DNA of 64,000 nt from Cladochytrium replicatum (taxonomy: Eukaryota; Chytridiomycota; Chytridiomycetes; Cladochytriales; Cladochytriaceae), in contig JAHLKD010000020.1 of NCBI GenBank assembly GCA_025526935.1, forward strand, positions 310,001 through 374,000, written 5' to 3'. The position numbers and the translations under genes are program-made. Within the stretch, counting starts at the first letter, position 1. Every line of letters starts with the position of its first letter. Shown here piece by piece: positions 28,253 to 40,587 of the stretch. The notes below the pieces were generated by a model, which did no database searches, had not been told where the DNA came from, and worked only from the letters and a program-made list of their open reading frames with translations.

Positions 28253-29223
28253 ATGGAGGACCGTCGTGAAGCAAACAAGGAACACTTCAGTAAGGCCGCA
28301 GCGGCCTGGGACTCCCGCTCAGAAATCCAGCGTCTCGCAACCCACGCCGCCGCCTCCATCTCCAAACACGTCTTCCCGAAACTCGCCAAACCCTCCAAGG
28401 AAGCTGTCTGCCTCGATTTTGGCTGCGGTGTCGGTGAGAATTATTTTAGCTTTTCTTTTATTTTCTATCCTCATGAATGTGTCTTCAGGCGTGCTGTCCA
28501 ATCAGCTCCGGAAGGACGCGAAGCACATCGTCGGTGTCGATCTGGCTGAGGGAATGATTGATGTTAACAAATCCAAAATCGAACCCAACTCCAACGTCTC
28601 CGCATTCTGCGTTGACCTCAGCAAAGCATCCGACGCCTCCGTCCTCCGTGGCGAACTCGACCGTCTCGGATCCGCACCCGGGTTCGACCTCATCTTCTCG
28701 CACCTTGTCTTTCACCGTGCGTTTAAAATACCAGATCCTTCCATCATACATCCAAACATTTTTTTAACTTAATTTGCTAGATCTCGACGACCCCAAAGCG
28801 ATGATAGCCATGCTCTCCAAGTTCCTCGCGCCGGGGGGTATTCTAGTCGTCACGGATATCCTCCAAACGCCCTCCTCGCACCTCTTCCACGCCGGCCACG
28901 CGCACGCGTCGAGCACCGTCGGCGCGCTCGGTGGATTCTCGAAGGCGTTTTGGGTGGACGCGGTGGATGGCGCGGGGATGAGGGACGCGGAGGTTGTCGA
29001 GAGGGCTTTTGTTATGGAGAAGGAAGTGCCGGTGAAGGATATTGAGAGGGCGGGGAGGCAGGATGTACTTACTGGGCATGGGCATGGACATATGCATGCT
29101 CACGGACATGGTGATCATGCACATGGACATGGTGATCATGGACACGGGCATGGCGGGGAAGAGAATAGTGGACCCAAGCGTGTCATGGAGTTTCCGATCT
29201 TCCTTGCGATGGCTCGATTGTAG
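28253..29223 (+). CDS. Class I SAM-dependent methyltransferase with a His/Gly-rich loop
   Basis: Three exons (28253-28433, 28489-28716, 28781-29223) give 283 residues. The Rossmann core is visible: motif I CLDFGCGVGVLS (split by intron 1), the acidic end of β2 in VGVDLAEGMID, VDLSKASD after β3, FDLIFSHLVFHHLDD for β4, and LAPGGILVVTDI for β5. It belongs to the UbiE/Coq5-like broad group; the substrate is unknown. The unusual feature is a run of ~28 residues, nearly all Gly, His, Asp and Met, encoded at 29071-29154, just before the final segment PKRVMEFPIFLAMARL. Such a run can bind Ni, Zn or Cu. The rest of the gene is ordinary. ATG 28253 follows a TATA box and is the only good start. Confidence 0.88.
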
Positions 29224-30212: not shown

Positions 30213-33200
30213 ATGGCGACAGATATCACATTCTACCCAGACGTACGCAATGTCGTTCCTGAAACGGCGATATGGGAAGACTACCGTGGCTACACCAGTG
30301 ATTTCGATCGTATGATCTACGCACACAAGAACGGCATGCCGTTCCGGCAGGGCGCCGCGAGGTCTACGTACACGATCTTTCCGTCCAAGAAACATGGATT
30401 TTATGGGAAGGCAGCTTATAGCATGGAATCCGGGGAAATCGAGGTGGAGGTGTTTGAGTGCTTGGAGAGGTCGACGGCGTTGAGTTGGTCGTCGCGGCAG
30501 GTGATTCCGGTGGTCCAGCTTCCTGATTATGAGACAGACAGGTAAGCTGTTTGGAAGGCAGAAGAAGGGAGCGAAACTGATCAGCAATATTATTGACATA
30601 GACGAGGGTATTTGGATGGTTGGATCACCTCTGATGGTACACACGTTGTGGTTCGACTGCAACGAGGATACGGTGACAACTCGACATGGATTGCTACATC
30701 GAAAGATGGTTGGAAGTCATGTAAATTTCCCGGAAGCCCTTTGCTCGATAACGTCATTCAGGTAGGAATAACCCAAACCAAACGGGGATCCAAGCAAGCT
30801 GACCATGTTTTGTCTTTTCAGTCAGATGATGGCGAGTACATCTTCAGCGAGGTCCGGAAGAATCATGGCGGGTCCCAACAGCATGCTGAAGTGCAGGCGA
30901 GAAGCCTTCGCACAATGAAGGTGGTTAAAACTTGGACATTCAAGTTTGGCGACAGCGTATACCGCCGTCATATGAGTCTCATCAGTCCGAGCATTAACGG
31001 TCGTCTTCACGCTATCATCGAAACAAAAGGCTTTGACGTCGACCGCAATAGTCCCGCTTTGATCGTATCGTCGGATGGTGCGGTTCATTTTAACGCCGCT
31101 GGAGTGAGCTGCGAAGATCAGTACATCTGGATCTCTCCGAATCAGAAGTACATGATCCGTCTCAATTACAAGGACGGCGAGCTTCAGTGCTGGGATCTCG
31201 AGCGACCCACGCTCAAACCACTCGTTACCACCCATCCCGTTCCATCAGTGGAATTTTCAAAGGCTTATCCAGTTTATCTGCTGGGCCAGTTGACCCAAAT
31301 CCGCGATTCGGTCAGCAAACAAGTGTTTAGTGGCATGTTCTCCGAATCCGGGGCCGTTTTTACGCTCGTCGGATCAGGCATCAACACCGTCTTATTTCAA
31401 GCCAGCTTCCTCGTTTTCAATCTCCAGCTGGTCGACTGCCGGGATATTCACGTAGATCTCCCAAGATCATTCGTGCCCATGAGCGTCGCGCTTGCCGAAA
31501 ACAAACGCCCCTCTGTGATTGGTGGGATCATTTCAGTTGTCACACTAGCTGGAGATCCCGCCGGAATGGATGTCGTTTATATGAAGGCGACACAGTTTGG
31601 ATTGGACATCGATGTGATCTTTGACTACTTTGAGCGTTGGTCAGCTTCGATCAGCGCAGTGCGCACGATTGCGGAGAGTAAGAGTGAGCCGCCGTTTGCT
31701 CAGTTCAAGTTTCGGCGAGACACAAGCCTGAAACTCGATTTGATGCCGTCGATTGGAGGCGCTCTTACCTCTCCTCCCCGGGACTCGATGGCCTGGAAGC
31801 ATCAGAATCTGCTTTTCAAAAGAACTCTATCAAAAGGACGGTTCCCAGATACACAAGCTTTCAGGGATCAGCGGCTTCCTTATCTTTTGACTTGCAATAT
31901 TCCTTGGTGCTTACCCCAACTTGAATCCGAGAGCAGCACATCCATCTTCGCCGCCGTGCTCGAGTATGATTTCGTCATATTGGCCGTTTCGTCGTCTACA
32001 ACTCTTGATATCGAGGCGAGCGTGGTTCGAGTACTCTACGAAAGTCACAACTCGAATATTTCTTCGATTGAGAACATCATCGAGTTTTACAGACATGGAC
32101 GGCATGTGCTGCTCAGTATCAGGATTCAAAAAAGAGCCTACGACCGAGATCGCTCAGAAGTTGTGTATACCACTGTCGCAGACGGTTTCTTTTGTCAGCC
32201 AAGCGCCGGATTTGATGTAGTGATTGCTGCAAATTCCCTCCACACTACTCTCCCTGGAGGCGGATGGGGTGTGAACATACCAGTTTTATGGTCAAATTCC
32301 TTCGCAGCATATTTTCGACCGGAGTTCTTTGATCCCAATGACCACGTCTTGACGATGGGAAACCGAAGTGCACCGGATTATAACATTGCAAAGTTTGAGA
32401 TCTGGAGGAATTACACTCTACACGAATCACGGAACGAGTTCAACGATATCATTCTGGGGGGTACCGAATTACGAAAGCAGATTGGAGAAACGTTTTCCAT
32501 GATCTACGATGACCCAGCCTACGATGATTCCCGGCCAGTTTTCGGCAGCACCTTCTTGGCCGCCATTAACCATGATCTGATGGTTGGAGGAACGCGATGT
32601 GTTGATGCGTTTTTGAAGAAAATGCACCAATCAGACGCGTTGATCATCGGGAACGGCGCGTCAATCTCAAGTGCATTCCCACTGCTACTTCGGGCTCGCC
32701 CATGGGAAGCCGTCCGTCTTATGCGCAAACTAACGCATTTAGACGTTGGTGTAGCAGACATCGGCCGGGTCACTTCCAAAACCGGCAAATCTTTCACAGA
32801 TCTTATGCTACGCCCACTCCGTGCGACTCTTGGGATACTTCGTGGCACCGGAATATCATATTTCTTCTCCGATCTCTTCTATTTGCTCTTCGGGATATTC
32901 CGGATACGTCGCACCTTCAAGCCTGGTTCAACGAACAGCAACGCCAAGAAGTATACACTCCCTCTTCCCAATTTCTGCTCATATAATCTGCGCCTGTATC
33001 GAGGTCTGACGTTTGCAGGAAGCCGGCTTGAAGAGGTTGGGGCGGACTTCAGTAACGCTGAACGGCAATGGCGTGAGCTCCAACTCGAAGCTTCAGGAAA
33101 TTTCGTCGAAGTTTTCTTTAGATCATGGGATCTCGCACGCCTTAGCAAAACAGCGCGCCGTATCAGCCCGTTTGTTAGGGTAGTGGAAGAATTAAGCCAA

Positions 33201-35072
33201 GTTCCGAATTCTGGAGACGGATGGGGAGACGACAGCGAAATGATCCAGCAGCTTCTTAACGTTCCTTGGTTCCAGAAGCTCATTCAGTGGAAGCTTCAGA
33301 AGTTTGGAATCTGGACCTTTTTGATCAGAGGCTTTCTGCCAATGCTAGCAATGTTCGGTTTGCACGTCACAACAAGCGTTCTTCTGACATCGACAGAGAC
33401 AACCGGAGCCAGCGGAAACAACATCCCACAGCTCATCAAGATCCTTGTCAGTGTCGAGGTTGCATTGGCGGTTTTCCTCTTGGGAATCAAACTTCGAAGT
33501 TTCATTCAATCGCCGAGATTGATCATATCAAACTTTTACACGTTTCTTGATGTCACCGCGATCGGACTTGCGGTTGCCATGTTTATTCAGATAGTTCTGG
33601 ATCAAGTTCCGCCTCGAGCATTCTTAGCATTTTCGGTTCCAGTTTTGTGGATCGATGTTGTGCTGATGCTGCGTATTTTCCAAAACGTTGGGACTCTTGT
33701 TTTGCTTGTTACTGAGATGGTAAAAAGGGTTTCGGGTTTCCTGGCGCTTATGGGCTCGCTAATTTTCGGTAGGTTACTTTTCAGGATCATTTGCGGCATG
33801 CTCAATTGACCATTTGTTCACAGGATTTGCCTTCATCCCCTTTTTGCTTCTGCGAAACGTTGGGAGTGAATCTTCGGTTGATAGCTCCTCAGATCCAAAC
33901 CCGTTCGACTATTTCCATCTCACACTCTTTGAAATGCTGCGTTTTGTGGGGAACGATTTTGATTCTCTCTCCGCATTCCGAACGATTGATTTCCGTGCGA
34001 ACGCAAGTAGCGGAGATTCATACTTGGCAGCATCAGTGAGAGGGTTGCAGTCACTGTTCGTGCTTATGGTGTCGATTTTGCTTCTCAACCTTCTTATTGC
34101 CCTTTTAAACATGGCTGTTGCTGGGGCTGCCGCGAGGGTATGCATTCAAAATTCCTCCCTTGGATGGTGAACTAAATACTACATATGCTGCAGGCACGGA
34201 ATATTTGGCATTATCAGATGGCGGTCCATATCTGTGAGATCGAGCTTGGATACCTTCTGCCACACGAACGCCGGAGGACCGATTGGTTCCCACCGTACTT
34301 CAGTTACACTATGACAGAAATGGAGTCGCGGCTTTGGCAGGAGTTTGTGGATAAGAATCCTCTGGTGTTTGCAGGTGATGATGAGAAGCCAGCGAAAGTA
34401 GCCACGGAAGCGGAACCAGCGCAAAGAGCAGCACCTCAAACTACGACCGGTGCTGCCCAGCCGACAACTACCCAGGTTGATGACAACGGTTCGGACATTG
34501 ACGATCAAGGAGATGACCTTGCTGCTCCAGCAACTGCAACCAGTGCAACTTCTGTCAAAACGACGATGGAAAACACAGCATCCAACAATACAGCCACGAC
34601 CGCCAACGTGACAACTAGCGCAAGCACGACCGTCCCTTCCAGCCTCCCAATGATCACGACGCCAAGCACGGGCACAGATCAAACCAGCACAAACAACACC
34701 ACCACCACTTCCGCAGCCGGCACACTTCCAAGTACAAGCACGGCAAATAGTAGAGGAAGTACAAAAAATCCAGAAATTAAGCTCACAGCACCTCCACGAA
34801 AAGATCTGACTGTTCCCAGACTCCCACCGTCTTCTTCAAACGAAAACACTTCTCCGCCATCGCCGCAGCCGCCTCCCATGGAACTAATTCCCACTGGCGA
34901 CACAGAAAGGTCTACTACCAACACAGATGCCGCTCCATTGTGCACTATATGTTCTAAACCTGGACGATATTGCACGAGATGTCGTAAAGTTGCCTATTGT
35001 TCGGTGGAACATCAAAAAGCTGATTGGAAGGCTGGGCACAAAGAAGTATGCAGGCCTTCTAAAGGTGGATAA
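30213..35072 (+). CDS. TRP-like cation channel fused to a C-terminal MYND zinc finger
   Basis: Five exons (30213-30541, 30602-30761, 30822-33768, 33824-34137, 34194-35072) give 1542 residues. Intron 2 (30762-30821) is 60 bp, frame-neutral and stop-free, so retention would add 20 residues. Residues 1 to ~870 are β-rich and repetitive (TSDGTHVVVRL and KDGELQCWDLERP style), like a divergent WD/β-propeller. Residues ~1000-1245 hold five to six hydrophobic segments: GFLPMLAMFGLHVTTSVLL, LVSVEVALAVFLLGIKL, FYTFLDVTAIGLAVAMF, LAFSVPVLWIDVVLMLRIF, GFAFIPFLLL and VLMVSILLLNLLIALLNMAV. The last is a hallmark of TRP/polycystin S6. A Thr/Ser/Asn-rich linker leads to a MYND finger (CTICSKPGRYCTRCRKVAYC...HKEVC). 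The start MATDITF at 30213 is preferred over the upstream ATG. Channel activity is inferred. Confidence 0.82.
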
Positions 35073-35427
35073 CCGTCGGTTATGTTAGTGCAGCCTTCTT
35101 AACATGATCATCTCGATCCCTGCCATGAGCCTGATTTGTATTGTGTTTGTTTGTTTCCAATAATCACTAACTTCTCCAGTTGCACAAGTTATATTTGTTT
35201 ATTGTATAGTCTAAAAGCCCCGAAAAAGTCATTTGAATATAATTGCTATGGAAGATGAGCTTCAGCTGTTTCAGTCCACTAAACAGACCTTGAGCCTACC
35301 GGCGAGATAGGAAGATCAGAAGTGCCCTCGAAATGTCCAGATTCCTGCCACATTCTCAAATACACTTTATCAGCAAGCTAGCTTTATTCAACCATAGGTC
35401 ATAAAATACGCAACATTTTCAGAAGAT
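35073..35427. other. Intergenic, convergent 3' ends
   Basis: 355 bp between two convergent stop codons. AT-rich 3' flanks with no gene seen. Confidence 0.45.
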
Positions 35428-36278
35428 CTATTCAAAAAGATGTGGCCAAACATCGCGTATTTGAGAAACTTTCCTCACTATTCGAAAGTTGCTTTCCACG
35501 GGTCCGCCCTCCTCTATACGCACCACTTCCCAGCCTAGACCCTTTTAATAGTCAATCAGTCAACATATGTTGGCGGTATTCAAAATCTCTATTACCGCTG
35601 CTACGGAGCAGTTGTCTTCCGAGTCATCGGCAAAGTAGACCTCAACTCCATCTATCGATCCACCGACTGCCTTCTCTGCTGCAGCCACATAGAACTGGGG
35701 GTCACATTTGGAAACGAAGGGTTCGGAAGCGTATTCCACTGCCACGATCCCATCCAACGTCCCCGTCAGACCCAGTCGTTCCAGCACGCGATCCGCATGC
35801 TCTTCGCTTCCGTTCGTCAAAGCCCACTTCCCCACGCCGTCTCGGACTCTTCCGATCATCTCCGAAATCTCCAAATCTCTTCGGAGCATAGAGAGATCGA
35901 GATCGTGCACGTAGCGATCAAAACGCGCAACGTCAGTTGCGGCGAAATCTGGGGGTGGAAATATTGAGTGTTTCCCTCCGTTGTCATTGAGATCGAATCG
36001 CTTATTTGTTACCATGGTGCAGAATTAATCCACGGACAGTCAATCCTGATACCATGGCGAATCAGACATTTGTGTTTGTACATTGATCCCGCATCCTTAC
36101 CATACCTCCCACTGTACTCCCTCGAAAGTCGACGGGCTGCATCGGCATCCACGCCGAGTTCATTTTTCACGAACGCTACGATGCGCTGCCCAAGTTCCCT
36201 CATGACACCCGCACTTGCCGGATACAAAGTGTTATCCACATCCAGAAACAGCACACGGTTCAATTATTTCGATGCCAT
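35428..36278 (-). CDS. HAD-family pyrimidine 5'-nucleotidase-like protein with a TAA at codon 5
   Basis: Four exons (36278-36101, 36045-36013, 35948-35596, 35541-35428) total 226 codons with introns of 55, 64 and 54 bp, all in phase. It resembles yeast Sdt1/Phm8 nucleotidases: FLDVDNTLY (motif I DxD), YGLTVRGLILHH, WALTNGSEEH (motif II), SKCDPQFY (motif III Lys) and VYFADDSEDN (motif IV). The family releases pyrimidines or phosphate from nucleoside monophosphates. Oddity: the only ATG upstream of the DxD motif (36278) is followed in the same frame by GCA TCG AAA and then TAA (36266-36264) before LNRVLFLDVD. No AG acceptor lies between that stop and the motif. Everything downstream is intact, so this is either a new nonsense mutation, near-cognate initiation at TTG 36263, readthrough, or a base error. 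Confidence 0.8.
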
Positions 36279-37085
36279 AGTAAGATTTGTGGCTTATTGG
36301 AAAAGTTGTAAAAAACAAAGAATTCTGTTCCGACTTTGGCCAACAGGGAGGCTGCTTTGGATGGATCAACGATCCTTGTATACCAACAAAGCAGATGAGT
36401 CGAGTAATCATGGGTACTGAATCGCTCGACATGGAGTTTTCACGCTCAATTGCGGTTCACGTAGTCAGGGAATATTGATGGCTCCGAAATGTTACTGTGC
36501 GCTTTCTGTAACTGAAGGTGGAGACGCATCCAATGATTCGGTTGAAGAACCTGGCGGCGATAACCACATTGAGTCATCTCATCCCATCCTTGGAAGCGTA
36601 ATGGTCGCTTGTATGAACCTATTCGCGTCAGCAAGCTAATGCTTTCGATCAAACAGCCTTCATTCGACATCGAGCGTGACGTTGAAGAGTTTATGACGAA
36701 AGTGGAGATGACCAAGTGGGCCATACGACAGGCAGTTACTTGCTCATTCCAGAAACTTATTTCGAGGGAACCCATGAATCGGATGGTGTTTGGAAGATTC
36801 CTCACAAGTAATATCGAAATAGGACGGCAGCCGAGGATGAGTTTACTTAAATTTGGTTGCGAGTGGTCGTTGTAATAATACTAAGTCTATGAAGACGATA
36901 ATTGCCTCCCAAGCTGAAGACGACAATTCGTCCAAGTATCTGGGAAACATAGTATATATTTCTGTGGAAAGCCATCCATAATAGAATGTGATGGAAAAAA
37001 TCGAAGTGCAACCGAATAAAAGTAAAGCAGAAACAGATTATCAAATACCCGAAATTCGAACATATTGTAGATTCCAATGATGACC
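36279..37085. other. Intergenic region of about 800 bp
   Basis: Between the nucleotidase-like start and the UXS stop. Open frames exist on both strands (36446-36875) but none has recognisable features. Nothing is called. Confidence 0.45.
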
Positions 37086-38520
37086 CTAGTTGATGTCATC
37101 GATCACGCCCTTGAAATATTCCACAGTCTCCTCGATCCCTTGAGTGACCATAAACCTCGGTCTCCACCCCAAAAACGTCTTTGCCCTCGTGATATCCGGT
37201 CGTCTTCGCTTCGGATCGTCCGTCGTCGCTGGTAAGTTCAGAATCCTTGTCTCCATGTTCACCACCTCCCTGATCATCTCTGCAAACTCCTGAATAGTAT
37301 ACTCCTCCGGGTTGCCCAGGTTTACCGGCTCCGAGTACGTCCCGTTCATGAGAGCGATGAGCCCGTCGACGAGGTCGTGGACGTACTGGAACGATCGTGT
37401 TTGCTCTCCGCCACCGTATACTGTGAGATCCTCGCCTTTGAGGGCCTGGATGATAAAGTTGGAGACTACCCGGCCGTCGTTCTCGTTCATGCGTGGGCCA
37501 AATGTGTTGAAAATACGAGCGACACGGACGTCGACACCGTCCTGTTTTGCGTATGCATATGTGAGAGTTTCAGCAACTCGCTTGCCTTCATCGTAACATG
37601 CTCTTGGACCAATCTACCGGAGAAACGTTGGTCATTCGTACAGAAAAATAATTTAAATCTTAATTCATACTTACCGGATTTACATGTCCCCAGTAAGACT
37701 CTTTTTGTGGGTGTTCCTCGGGGTCTCCGTAAACCTCTAAGCATTCCAACTTAATTCAGAATACATATTGATGCCACCAGCCATCCCACTTACCAGAGGT
37801 TGAGGTGATTAAAAATCTAGCTTTCGTCCGCTTCGCCAGGCCAAGCATGTTGATCGTCCCCATCACCGATGTCTTTACCGTCTTGATCGGGTTATACTGA
37901 TAATGCGGAGGAGATGCAGGGCACGCAAGGTGGTAGATCTGGTCAACCTCGATAAGGATCGGATCCACAACATCATGACGCACAAGCTCAAAGTTGGGGT
38001 GTCCGATCCAATGCTGAATATTCCTCTTGTTCCCCGTGAAAAAATTGTCCAGCACAATTACTTCATGTCCGAGGAGCATGAGCCTGTCCACAAGATGCGA
38101 GCCAACGAAACCGGCGCCGCCAGTCACAAGGATGCGTTTCTTGTCGGGAGTGCGAAGCTTGCGGACGGGAGGGTAGGTCCGCATGCCGCTGATGTTGTTG
38201 TACAGAGACGATCCTTGCGCTAAAGATGGAGCAACGGTGGAGGTGGAGTTCAGGTTGGGATTCGAGTATGCTACCCGAGGGCCATCATAGTGGAGCCAGC
38301 CGTCAGCTGATTCGTTGAAGGGGTTGAGGTTCAGGTAAAGCCTTCGAAGAGCAGAGAGCGGCAGGGATTCAGAATCGTTCCCGACATGGGTCACCCAACC
38401 TGGTTTGTATGCATTGGGGTCTTCATCTGTCTGGTGCTTCAGAGATCGACGTGTTGTGAGTGCGCTTGATGAGAATGGAGCGGGAGAGGAGTCTCTGGAA
38501 TGATTGGGATCGGAGGACAT
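37086..38520 (-). CDS. UXS1: UDP-glucuronate decarboxylase (UDP-xylose synthase)
   Basis: Three exons (38520-37794, 37736-37675, 37613-37086) give 438 residues. An SDR enzyme that converts UDP-glucuronate to UDP-xylose with bound NAD. After ~125 disordered residues comes the Rossmann loop [14 protein letters not shown], then [24 protein letters not shown], the TSTSEVYG serine, and catalytic YDEGK in [11 protein letters not shown], with [10 protein letters not shown] and GRVVSNFI later. These are characteristic of UXS rather than of epimerases. No N-terminal membrane helix is present, so a soluble form is expected, unlike animal Golgi UXS1. The product supplies xylose to glycans. UXS is absent from many Dikarya but known in basidiomycetes and early-diverging fungi. 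Confidence 0.95.
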
Positions 38521-38990
38521 CGCTGAGGAGGCAGGGGACGGAGCGCAATAATCGAAAGAGAGAAAGACAGTGTATGCGGGTGTCTCGTGGCGGTCGGCAC
38601 AACTGATGTTTTGAGGGACGGGACGGGGTTGGGTGTCTTGTCTTGCTCACGTGGACGCTTTGAGCCCATCGATTAGTGACCGATGGTGTGCTACTTCCAT
38701 GGATTTATCACACAGCAGCATGATCAAACTCTGTGCAATTTGAATGGGAGCAATATATCTTCCTCGGCGATGATAATGCCATCGATGCTTCCTCTTCTAT
38801 GCAAGAGACGTCTTGTGGTGGCGGCACTCCCTATTGTAGGAACGGGTGCGTGAGAAACTGTCGGTCGAACACGTAGTGTTGATAATATTCTGATTTATAA
38901 AACTGATAAAAACTCGGGAGCCAACTCAGATTCATAGAAAAAAAGCCATGTGCAGATTTACATAAGGCAAACAGTTTCAGATTGTCCGGT
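38521..38990. other. Intergenic, 470 bp
   Basis: UXS promoter plus the 3' flank of the MFS gene. The UXS 5' flank is rich in CT tracts on the coding strand. No gene. Confidence 0.45.
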
Positions 38991-40587
38991 CTAGGCACTA
39001 GCAGGCACAGAATCTTTCTTGGTTGCCTTCTCAGGAGCAGATTCCTCATCTGCTGCCACAACCGCAGTCGTGTCCATTTCTTCTTTGGCTTCTACAAGCT
39101 CATACTCGGACCCGCTTCCAAACTTCCACCAGATCAAGCCCGTCACTCCCATCGACGCGATCAAGAATGCGAAAACAGTCCAGTTGCCCCACGAGTACGT
39201 CGGTGACGCAGTCGAAGGGAACAAAAAAGGCGCGGTGATACCTCCAATATTTGCGATCGCAATCATGCCGCCGGTGGCAAGAGCCGTCGCCGTGGATCCC
39301 GAGACCGTTCTTGTTCGGTGCGCGATGAACGGAATCACGGCCGAGTTTGTGCACGCGATCAGGAGAACACCAATGTATCGCACTGGGATGTTGTTCGACA
39401 CGGTGGCGAGGAGGAGGTAGCCCAGTGAAGTGAGCGCGAGACCGCCGAGGATATGACGGCTGCGTTCTCTGGTCTTGTCGGAGTGGAACGAGTTTGATAC
39501 GATGATGATGAAGCCAAAGACGTTGGGCGGGATCGTGAGCGCCTGGGCCGCGGGGCCTTTGAAACCGAGTGCGGAAATGATTACGGAGTTGAAATAGCCG
39601 AAGGCATTGAGGGAGTTGGTCATCAGGAAGTACTGGATCGAGAACACCCAGAACCACGGGTCTTTGATCGTCTCCAAGGCTACTTGCACGTCAAAGTGCT
39701 TGTCGGTTGATTTCGGAGTTCCGTCTCCCAACCGGCTGACGGCAAACTCACGCTCTTCTTCCGTCAGGAACTTTGCGCTGTCGGGGTAGTTGGGCATGAA
39801 GAACAGCACAAGGATGCCGACGATGATGGCTGGCGCACCCTCGATAATGTAGAGCCATTGCCAACCTGGATGGGAAAGCAATTCAGCATTTGCTTGTTCA
39901 TATCATTCGAATTTGACATAATAACGACCTTTGAGACCACCAACGTCGTGCATGTATGAAATTCCGGTTGAAATCAAACCACCAAAAGCACCAGCGACGG
40001 ACACGGAGGCGGCGAACAATGCCATGCGGGAGGCACGCTCAGAAGGTTTGTACCAGAAGCAGAGGTAGAAGAGGGCAGACGGGAAGAAACCTTTAAAGAG
40101 TAGAACAGGTAAGTCATCGCACCACACCAAGAGGAGTTGATGCACTCACCAGCTTCAGCCAGCCCAAGGAATACACGACATATGACCAGCCCTTCATAGG
40201 TCGAAACTGCAGCAGTGCACATAGTAACAATGCCCCACGTAATCATGATTCTTCCGAGCCAAATTGACGGCGAGAAGTATTTCAGCATGATGTTGCTGGG
40301 GAACTCCATCTACATTTCACAACTATCAGGCAAATCGCATTCATTTTGCCATACCATGAGAAACATACCAACACGTAGGGCACAAAGAAGATGCTGACGG
40401 CGAAGTTGTACTTTGTTCCATCGAGCCCGAGTGATTCACCCATACTCGCACCAGGTTTGTCGTTGTTCAGCGTGTAACCGTTTCCGATGTTGGTCCGGTC
40501 AAGGTAATTGATGAGGTAGCAGACGCAGATCCATGGGAGGAGGTTCATGTCCAGCTTGCGGACCAATGCCTTTTCGTCGACAGACAT
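38991..40587 (-). CDS. MFS transporter, allantoate-permease/anion:cation symporter (Dal5-like) family
   Basis: Four exons (40587-40369, 40309-40150, 40090-39929, 39865-38991) give 471 residues, all in phase. The N-terminus KALVRKLDMNLLPWICVCYL then NYLDRTNIGN is the classic start of fungal Dal5/Tna1-type permeases. It is followed by GLAEAGFFPSALFYLCFWYK with the conserved Pro and Trp-Tyr, then TM5-6, and a central loop with LTEEEREFAVSRL. Twelve helices are expected. The family imports organic anions such as allantoate, nicotinate, pantothenate or biotin precursors by proton symport; the substrate is not evident. The C-terminal tail is acidic and Lys/Ala-rich. ATG 40587 is the obvious start. 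Confidence 0.92.

Follow-up and report, generated by a model that had tools for sequence, protein, structure and literature searches.

The 64-kb window analysed here, positions 310001-374000 of contig C20 in a 50.5 Mb genome assembly of 198 contigs, carries at 30213-35072 on the forward strand a gene whose predicted product joins a membrane block of the TRP type to a C-terminal MYND zinc finger. A first-pass annotation of this DNA had proposed a single continuous spliced frame over the interval, and five exons do join into a spliced open reading frame (ORF) of 4,629 nt, which encodes 1,542 residues and a stop and is interrupted by four introns, all of them GT-AG (Table 1). Sequence comparison lends good support to the view that these parts belong to one protein, a channel of the TRP type that terminates in a MYND finger.

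Introns 1, 2 and 4 are picked up by a simple consensus scan of the gene that looks for a CTRA branch-like site, with an alternative acceptor for intron 2 possible at 30825; the scan does not pick up intron 3. Intron 2 is itself in frame and stop-free and would, if retained, add 20 residues. Introns 3 and 4 are both spanned by the alignment to TRPV channels, which continues into the NIWxxQxAxxIxxxE motif of exon 5, the NIW of the TRP helix starting at 34200, base 7 of that exon. Because TRPV-conserved sequence stands on both sides of intron 4 and read-through meets a stop, homology gives good evidence that 34138-34193 is spliced out, exactly where the junction had been placed. An extra intron excising the finger was also considered and rejected: the sole candidate from the scan in exon 5, 35046-35093, would remove the last cysteine of the finger.

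Table 1. Exons, introns and predicted protein features of the channel gene (positions in the window).
Feature	Position	Strand	Description
Exon 1	30213..30541	+	residues 1-110, start ATG at 30213
N-terminal region	30213..32432	+	residues 1-700, genomic span including introns 1 and 2
Intron 1	30542..30601	+	60 nt, GTAAGC...TAG, CTGAT branch-like site
Exon 2	30602..30761	+	residues 110-163
Intron 2	30762..30821	+	60 nt, GTAGGA...CAG, CTGAC branch-like site
Exon 3	30822..33768	+	residues 164-1146: remaining beta-rich N-terminal region, helical pre-S1, S1-S4, first half of S5 (predicted)
S1-S4	33306..33692	+	residues 992-1120; grouped hydropathy windows 992-1018, 1034-1052, 1063-1089, 1097-1120
Intron 3	33769..33823	+	55 nt, GTAGGT...CAG, within S5
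Exon 4	33824..34137	+	residues 1146-1250: second half of S5, pore helix, filter-like FVGNDFD (to residue 1192), S6 at 1222-1245 (predicted)
Intron 4	34138..34193	+	56 nt, GTATGC...CAG; read-through meets a stop
Exon 5	34194..35072	+	residues 1251-1542 and stop: TRP helix, linker, MYND finger, single ORF
TRP helix	34200..34268	+	NIWHYQMAVHICEIELGYLLPHE, residues 1253-1275; counterpart in TRPV1, niwklqraitildteksfl
Linker	34401..34937	+	residues 1320-1498, 66% T/S/P/A/N
MYND zinc finger	34941..35051	+	residues 1500-1536; stop codon six residues on

Residues 976-1288, searched with phmmer against sequences of the PDB, give 37 distinct matches at E ≤ 0.01, all of them TRPV1 or TRPV2 but for a single TRPM2 and an "Osm-9-like TRP channel 1". 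At the top stands TRPV2 (E 2.1e-7), with TRPV2 and TRPV1 entries ranging from 2e-7 to 7e-7, and the homology covers S3-S6 together with the TRP helix, which places the block with TRPV channels on sequence. The exactly reversed block, taken as a control, has no PDB match at E ≤ 1. When the whole protein is searched, TRPV1 and TRPV2 appear at about E 8e-7 with TRPM2 and TRPV4 behind, among the matches listed (the best 60 of 94, MYND entries included), and the NCBIfam trp model TIGR00870 matches at E 8.5e-8, scoring 30.7 bits where the curated cut-off is 498.75. The block had been described as "TRP/polycystin-type"; its TRP half is upheld in a TRPV-like form, and a polycystin identity was rejected, as PKD_channel has no match at the locus (E ≤ 0.001) or in the protein (E ≤ 5). 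From residue 992 to residue 1240, the hydropathy windows above the limit fall by eye into six segments, the last of which, S6, carries LLLNLLIALLNMAV and corresponds to the final membrane helix pointed out earlier. A putative pore segment with FVGNDFD can be aligned by hand to TRPV between S5 and S6. After S6 the alignment to TRPV1 reads ...niwklqraitildteksfl in TRPV1 and, past intron 4, ...NIWHYQMAVHICEIELGYL in the channel described here.

The N-terminal region had been read as beta-rich and built of propeller-like repeats, and only the first part of that description finds an echo. In a very low-confidence AlphaFold2 model, made without an alignment from 792 residues (111-882 plus 20 that are intron-encoded), strands prevail up to roughly residue 690, interspersed with a few helices, and from roughly 712 on the prediction is helical; this predicted secondary structure agrees with "beta-rich" and carries no information on a propeller. 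The repeats were not confirmed: over the first ~975 residues Pfam gives no family below E 0.1, residues 1-954 have no match among PDB sequences at E ≤ 10, and WD40 is without a match in the Pfam scans of the whole protein and of its pieces. A weak match to DUF4374 in the N-terminal scans (E 0.11) was not used. Ankyrin families were likewise not found, at E ≤ 5 in the whole protein or at E ≤ 10 in three pieces (residues 164-700 and 712-975).

One stop-free ORF, 34176-35072, holds both the TRP helix and the finger, which are connected by a T/S/P-rich, low-complexity tether of about 220 residues; the long Thr/Ser linker and the complete finger are both present as first described. Pfam zf-MYND matches at E 4.3e-8 (33.5 bits against a cut-off of 22.7). 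All eight zinc ligands are in place (C1500, C1503, C1510, C1513, C1519, H1523, H1532 and C1536). The nearest PDB relative of the finger is ZMYND12 (E 1e-5), with DEAF-1 next. In the alignment, Q1524 and W1528 stand opposite a Gln and a Trp of DEAF-1, which are taken to be Gln529 and Trp533, contacts for proline-rich corepressor peptides according to PMC3555993. Of the five DEAF-1 positions that PMC3555993 names, three (Thr, Gln and Trp) are conserved in the finger and two (Met and Glu) differ, as the alignment reads by eye. A PxLxP motif at linker residue 1458 was examined as a possible self-ligand and rejected, being present in 1951 of 20000 shuffled linkers.

Profile searches of the genome ran exon by exon, and all counts from them are lower bounds. 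Among the 21 MYND matches they returned, the closest to the channel finger are L044 (52% identity) and L043 (50%), and a His at ligand six occurs only in these three. L043 carries PDCD2_C (E 4.6e-26), and the ORF of L044 is near-identical to it by eye; PDCD2_C is not found in the channel. From its sequence the finger looks like a PDCD2-type finger added to the channel tail, and it probably joined an existing channel later; ZMYND12 has the same ligand-six His, so descent from another finger of the His type is also possible. In five other MYND ORFs (L005, L008, L042, L046 and L047) the finger likewise lies close to the C-terminus; L046 and L047 have identical fingers, and a single residue separates the finger of L005 from that of L008, which suggests duplicates.

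The channel in the window accounts for the only one of the 21 MYND matches that lies at the locus of a TRP-like channel found in these searches. Ion_trans has 19 matches in the genome, and the contigs that these share with MYND matches are only C35 and C4, where the two lie more than 200 kb apart. Two of the ORFs with Ion_trans matches, L030 on C31 and L035 on C66, reach E ≤ 0.01 with the trp model when each is scanned by itself, and by trp-model matches the genome has at least four apparent other TRP-like genes (one on C31, two on C66 and one on C5); since the Ion_trans and trp models miss the window's own channel when run exon by exon, equally divergent channels could have escaped. On C66 the trp-model matches form two groups, separated by about 3 kb, at C66:232941-238072, likely a tandem pair. 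Like the channel described here, the genes on C31, C66 and C5 match the pore part of TIGR00870; unlike it, they also match an N-terminal part of the model, positions 121-219, and show no MYND match. Positions 95-219 of TIGR00870 are presumably its ankyrin region.

We regard it as probable, with appreciable room for doubt, that the gene belongs to a zoosporic fungus and encodes a TRPV-like cation channel to whose C-terminus a MYND docking domain is tethered. Several observations, on the channel and on its tail, weigh against this reading. Pfam Ion_trans scores below its cut-off (15.6 against 25 bits, E 0.0097) and is missing from the whole-protein scan, so Pfam alone would miss the channel. Three more hydropathy windows, barely above the limit that marks the six segments, sit in the N-terminal region. 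The AlphaFold2 model of S1-S5 is helical, with a predicted local distance difference test score (pLDDT) of 62.3 and a predicted template modelling score (pTM) of 0.27, and gives no fold support; Foldseek finds nothing for it at E ≤ 0.001 and nine matches at E ≤ 10, the best at E 2.3. The model of the N-terminal region, at a mean pLDDT of 33.8, gives no fold support either. A genome search with channel residues 1-1323 detects one relative, on contig C70, which corresponds to about residues 707-1171, has stops and is without the N-terminal region and exon 5. The weak Ion_trans score, the poor AlphaFold2 models and this decayed duplicate in the same genome would suit a membrane block that is a decayed or repurposed TRP-fold protein and not an ion channel, but the acidic filter-like segment, S6 and the TRP helix have been preserved and no stop interrupts the spliced frame, and we consider such a protein highly improbable.

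The tail raises its own difficulties. Dinucleotide shuffles of 34299-35069 never leave the tail frame free of stops (0 of 5000), the low-complexity linker alone is stop-free in 42 of 5000, and the remaining five linker frames contain 4, 8, 2, 3 and 9 stops; that the tail frame is open by chance is unlikely. On the opposite strand, however, a 218-codon ORF is also open at 34179-34835, so an open frame alone is weak evidence here. In-frame methionines in the linker (1375, 1403 or 1479) could serve as the start of a separate small MYND protein, with the channel ending shortly past the TRP helix; an arrangement in two genes is very unlikely, because the stop-free ORF leaves no stop between the TRP helix and the finger and the shuffles disfavour an accidentally open frame. 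In codon use, measured against the channel's own residues 1-1260, a reference that makes the positive scores of the body partly circular, the linker scores 0.6, with two of the five other frames scoring higher, and the last 52 codons score -6.2 bits, beaten by four of five other frames. The GC content at third codon positions falls to 0.31 in those 52 codons, against 0.52-0.58 in the channel body, and at 0.30 that of the finger is the lowest of the 21 MYND matches (others 0.43-0.79). Such atypical codon use fits a later addition or weaker constraint, and would also be compatible with a rarely translated tail. Together with the proximity of the finger to L044 and L043 and the absence of MYND matches at the loci of the other TRP-like genes found, it speaks for a second possibility, namely that the TRPV-like channel is real and the finger incidental, a PDCD2-type read-through or fusion in this species, without a selected role or present in a minor transcript only. 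The eight ligands and the binding-surface Gln and Trp are nevertheless intact, the linker frame is open beyond chance, and an identity of ~50% to PDCD2 is not that of a very recent copy; an incidental finger seems to us unlikely, if far from negligible.

The C70 copy lies within an old segmental duplication that also includes the neighbouring gene of the GDP_Man_Dehyd/Epimerase type. The duplicated pieces are window 32451-33899, 36096-36263, 37085-38559 and 38977-39361, matched in L040 (C70:203000-212500); the epimerase-type gene (window 37085-38559, L040 6074-7540) is 86% identical between the copies, with long open frames on both contigs. The copy is without exon 5 and gives no indication of whether the finger was there originally. 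L040 2217-2450, which lies upstream of the decayed channel sequence, resembles a reverse transcriptase fragment (RVT_1, E 1e-4, under the cut-off). An ORF at window 28768-29223 looks methyltransferase-like by eye; those pieces of it that were scanned match nothing in Pfam at E ≤ 0.01, and towards its end it has a repeat rich in His, Gly and Asp (HGHGHMHAHGHGDHAHGHGDHGHGHGG) that may bind metal. A tRNA scan of the 64-kb window with the bacterial code found no genes. Searches of viral and of bacterial and archaeal contigs gave 2 and 24 pattern matches, with no relative among them, as expected for a fungal gene. The genome has flagellar genes (Radial_spoke, E 2.9e-47) and 73 pieces matching Chitin_synth_2, a model for which 4 of 14 control genomes likewise have matches; by this gene content the host is likely a zoosporic fungus with flagellar genes.

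N-terminal ankyrin repeats are a feature of the TRPV family. The channel described here shares with TRPV1 and TRPV2 the aligned S3-S6 and TRP helix, with NIWxxQxAxxIxxxE after S6 in both, and differs from them in having no detected ankyrin repeats, an N-terminal ~970 residues that match no known family, and a long T/S/P tether with a C-terminal MYND finger. Other early-diverging fungi have annotated TRPV-like proteins that lack ankyrin repeats and whose N-termini are rich in repeats; if these annotations hold, only the MYND tail is unusual. With the MYND domains of DEAF-1, ETO and BS69 the finger appears to share the zinc-ligand layout and the Gln and Trp of the proline-peptide surface; those domains are within transcription regulators, as PMC3555993 describes, whereas the finger here is predicted to be tethered to a membrane channel. 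Judged from sequence, every part other than the N-terminus belongs to a known kind, and the combination is unusual and seen in one genome. An expansion of TRP-CC in Neocallimastigomycota and Glomeromycotina is described in PMC8778642, in whose main text the word MYND is missing, and PMC11526382 places the origin of TRPV before animals, in choanoflagellates. No description of an architecture combining a TRP channel with MYND was found in the titles and abstract openings of open-access PubMed Central articles, among the matches listed.

If the TRPV-like channel with its tethered finger is built like TRPV channels, four subunits would form a pore tetramer, cations, calcium included, would pass a filter near the acidic FVGNDFD, and gating would be relayed from the N-terminal region through the TRP helix. 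Four flexible cytosolic MYND fingers on their long tethers could then dock proline-rich partners or modulators beside the pore, and by analogy a sensor linking ion flux to a module that binds proteins, as the first-pass annotation imagined, is a reasonable inference. Rather more tentatively, the protein may stand for an ankyrin-free TRPV-like class in zoosporic fungi, in which a strand-rich domain replaces the ankyrin sensor and the four MYND arms act as a docking hub at a calcium pore; we regard this broader idea as doubtful, though worth stating. Should the favoured reading be true, a known reader of proline-rich peptides would be set beside a cation pore, giving a route from ion flux to partner recruitment, probably in a fungus with swimming zoospores, and a TRPV-like pore would persist without ankyrin repeats.

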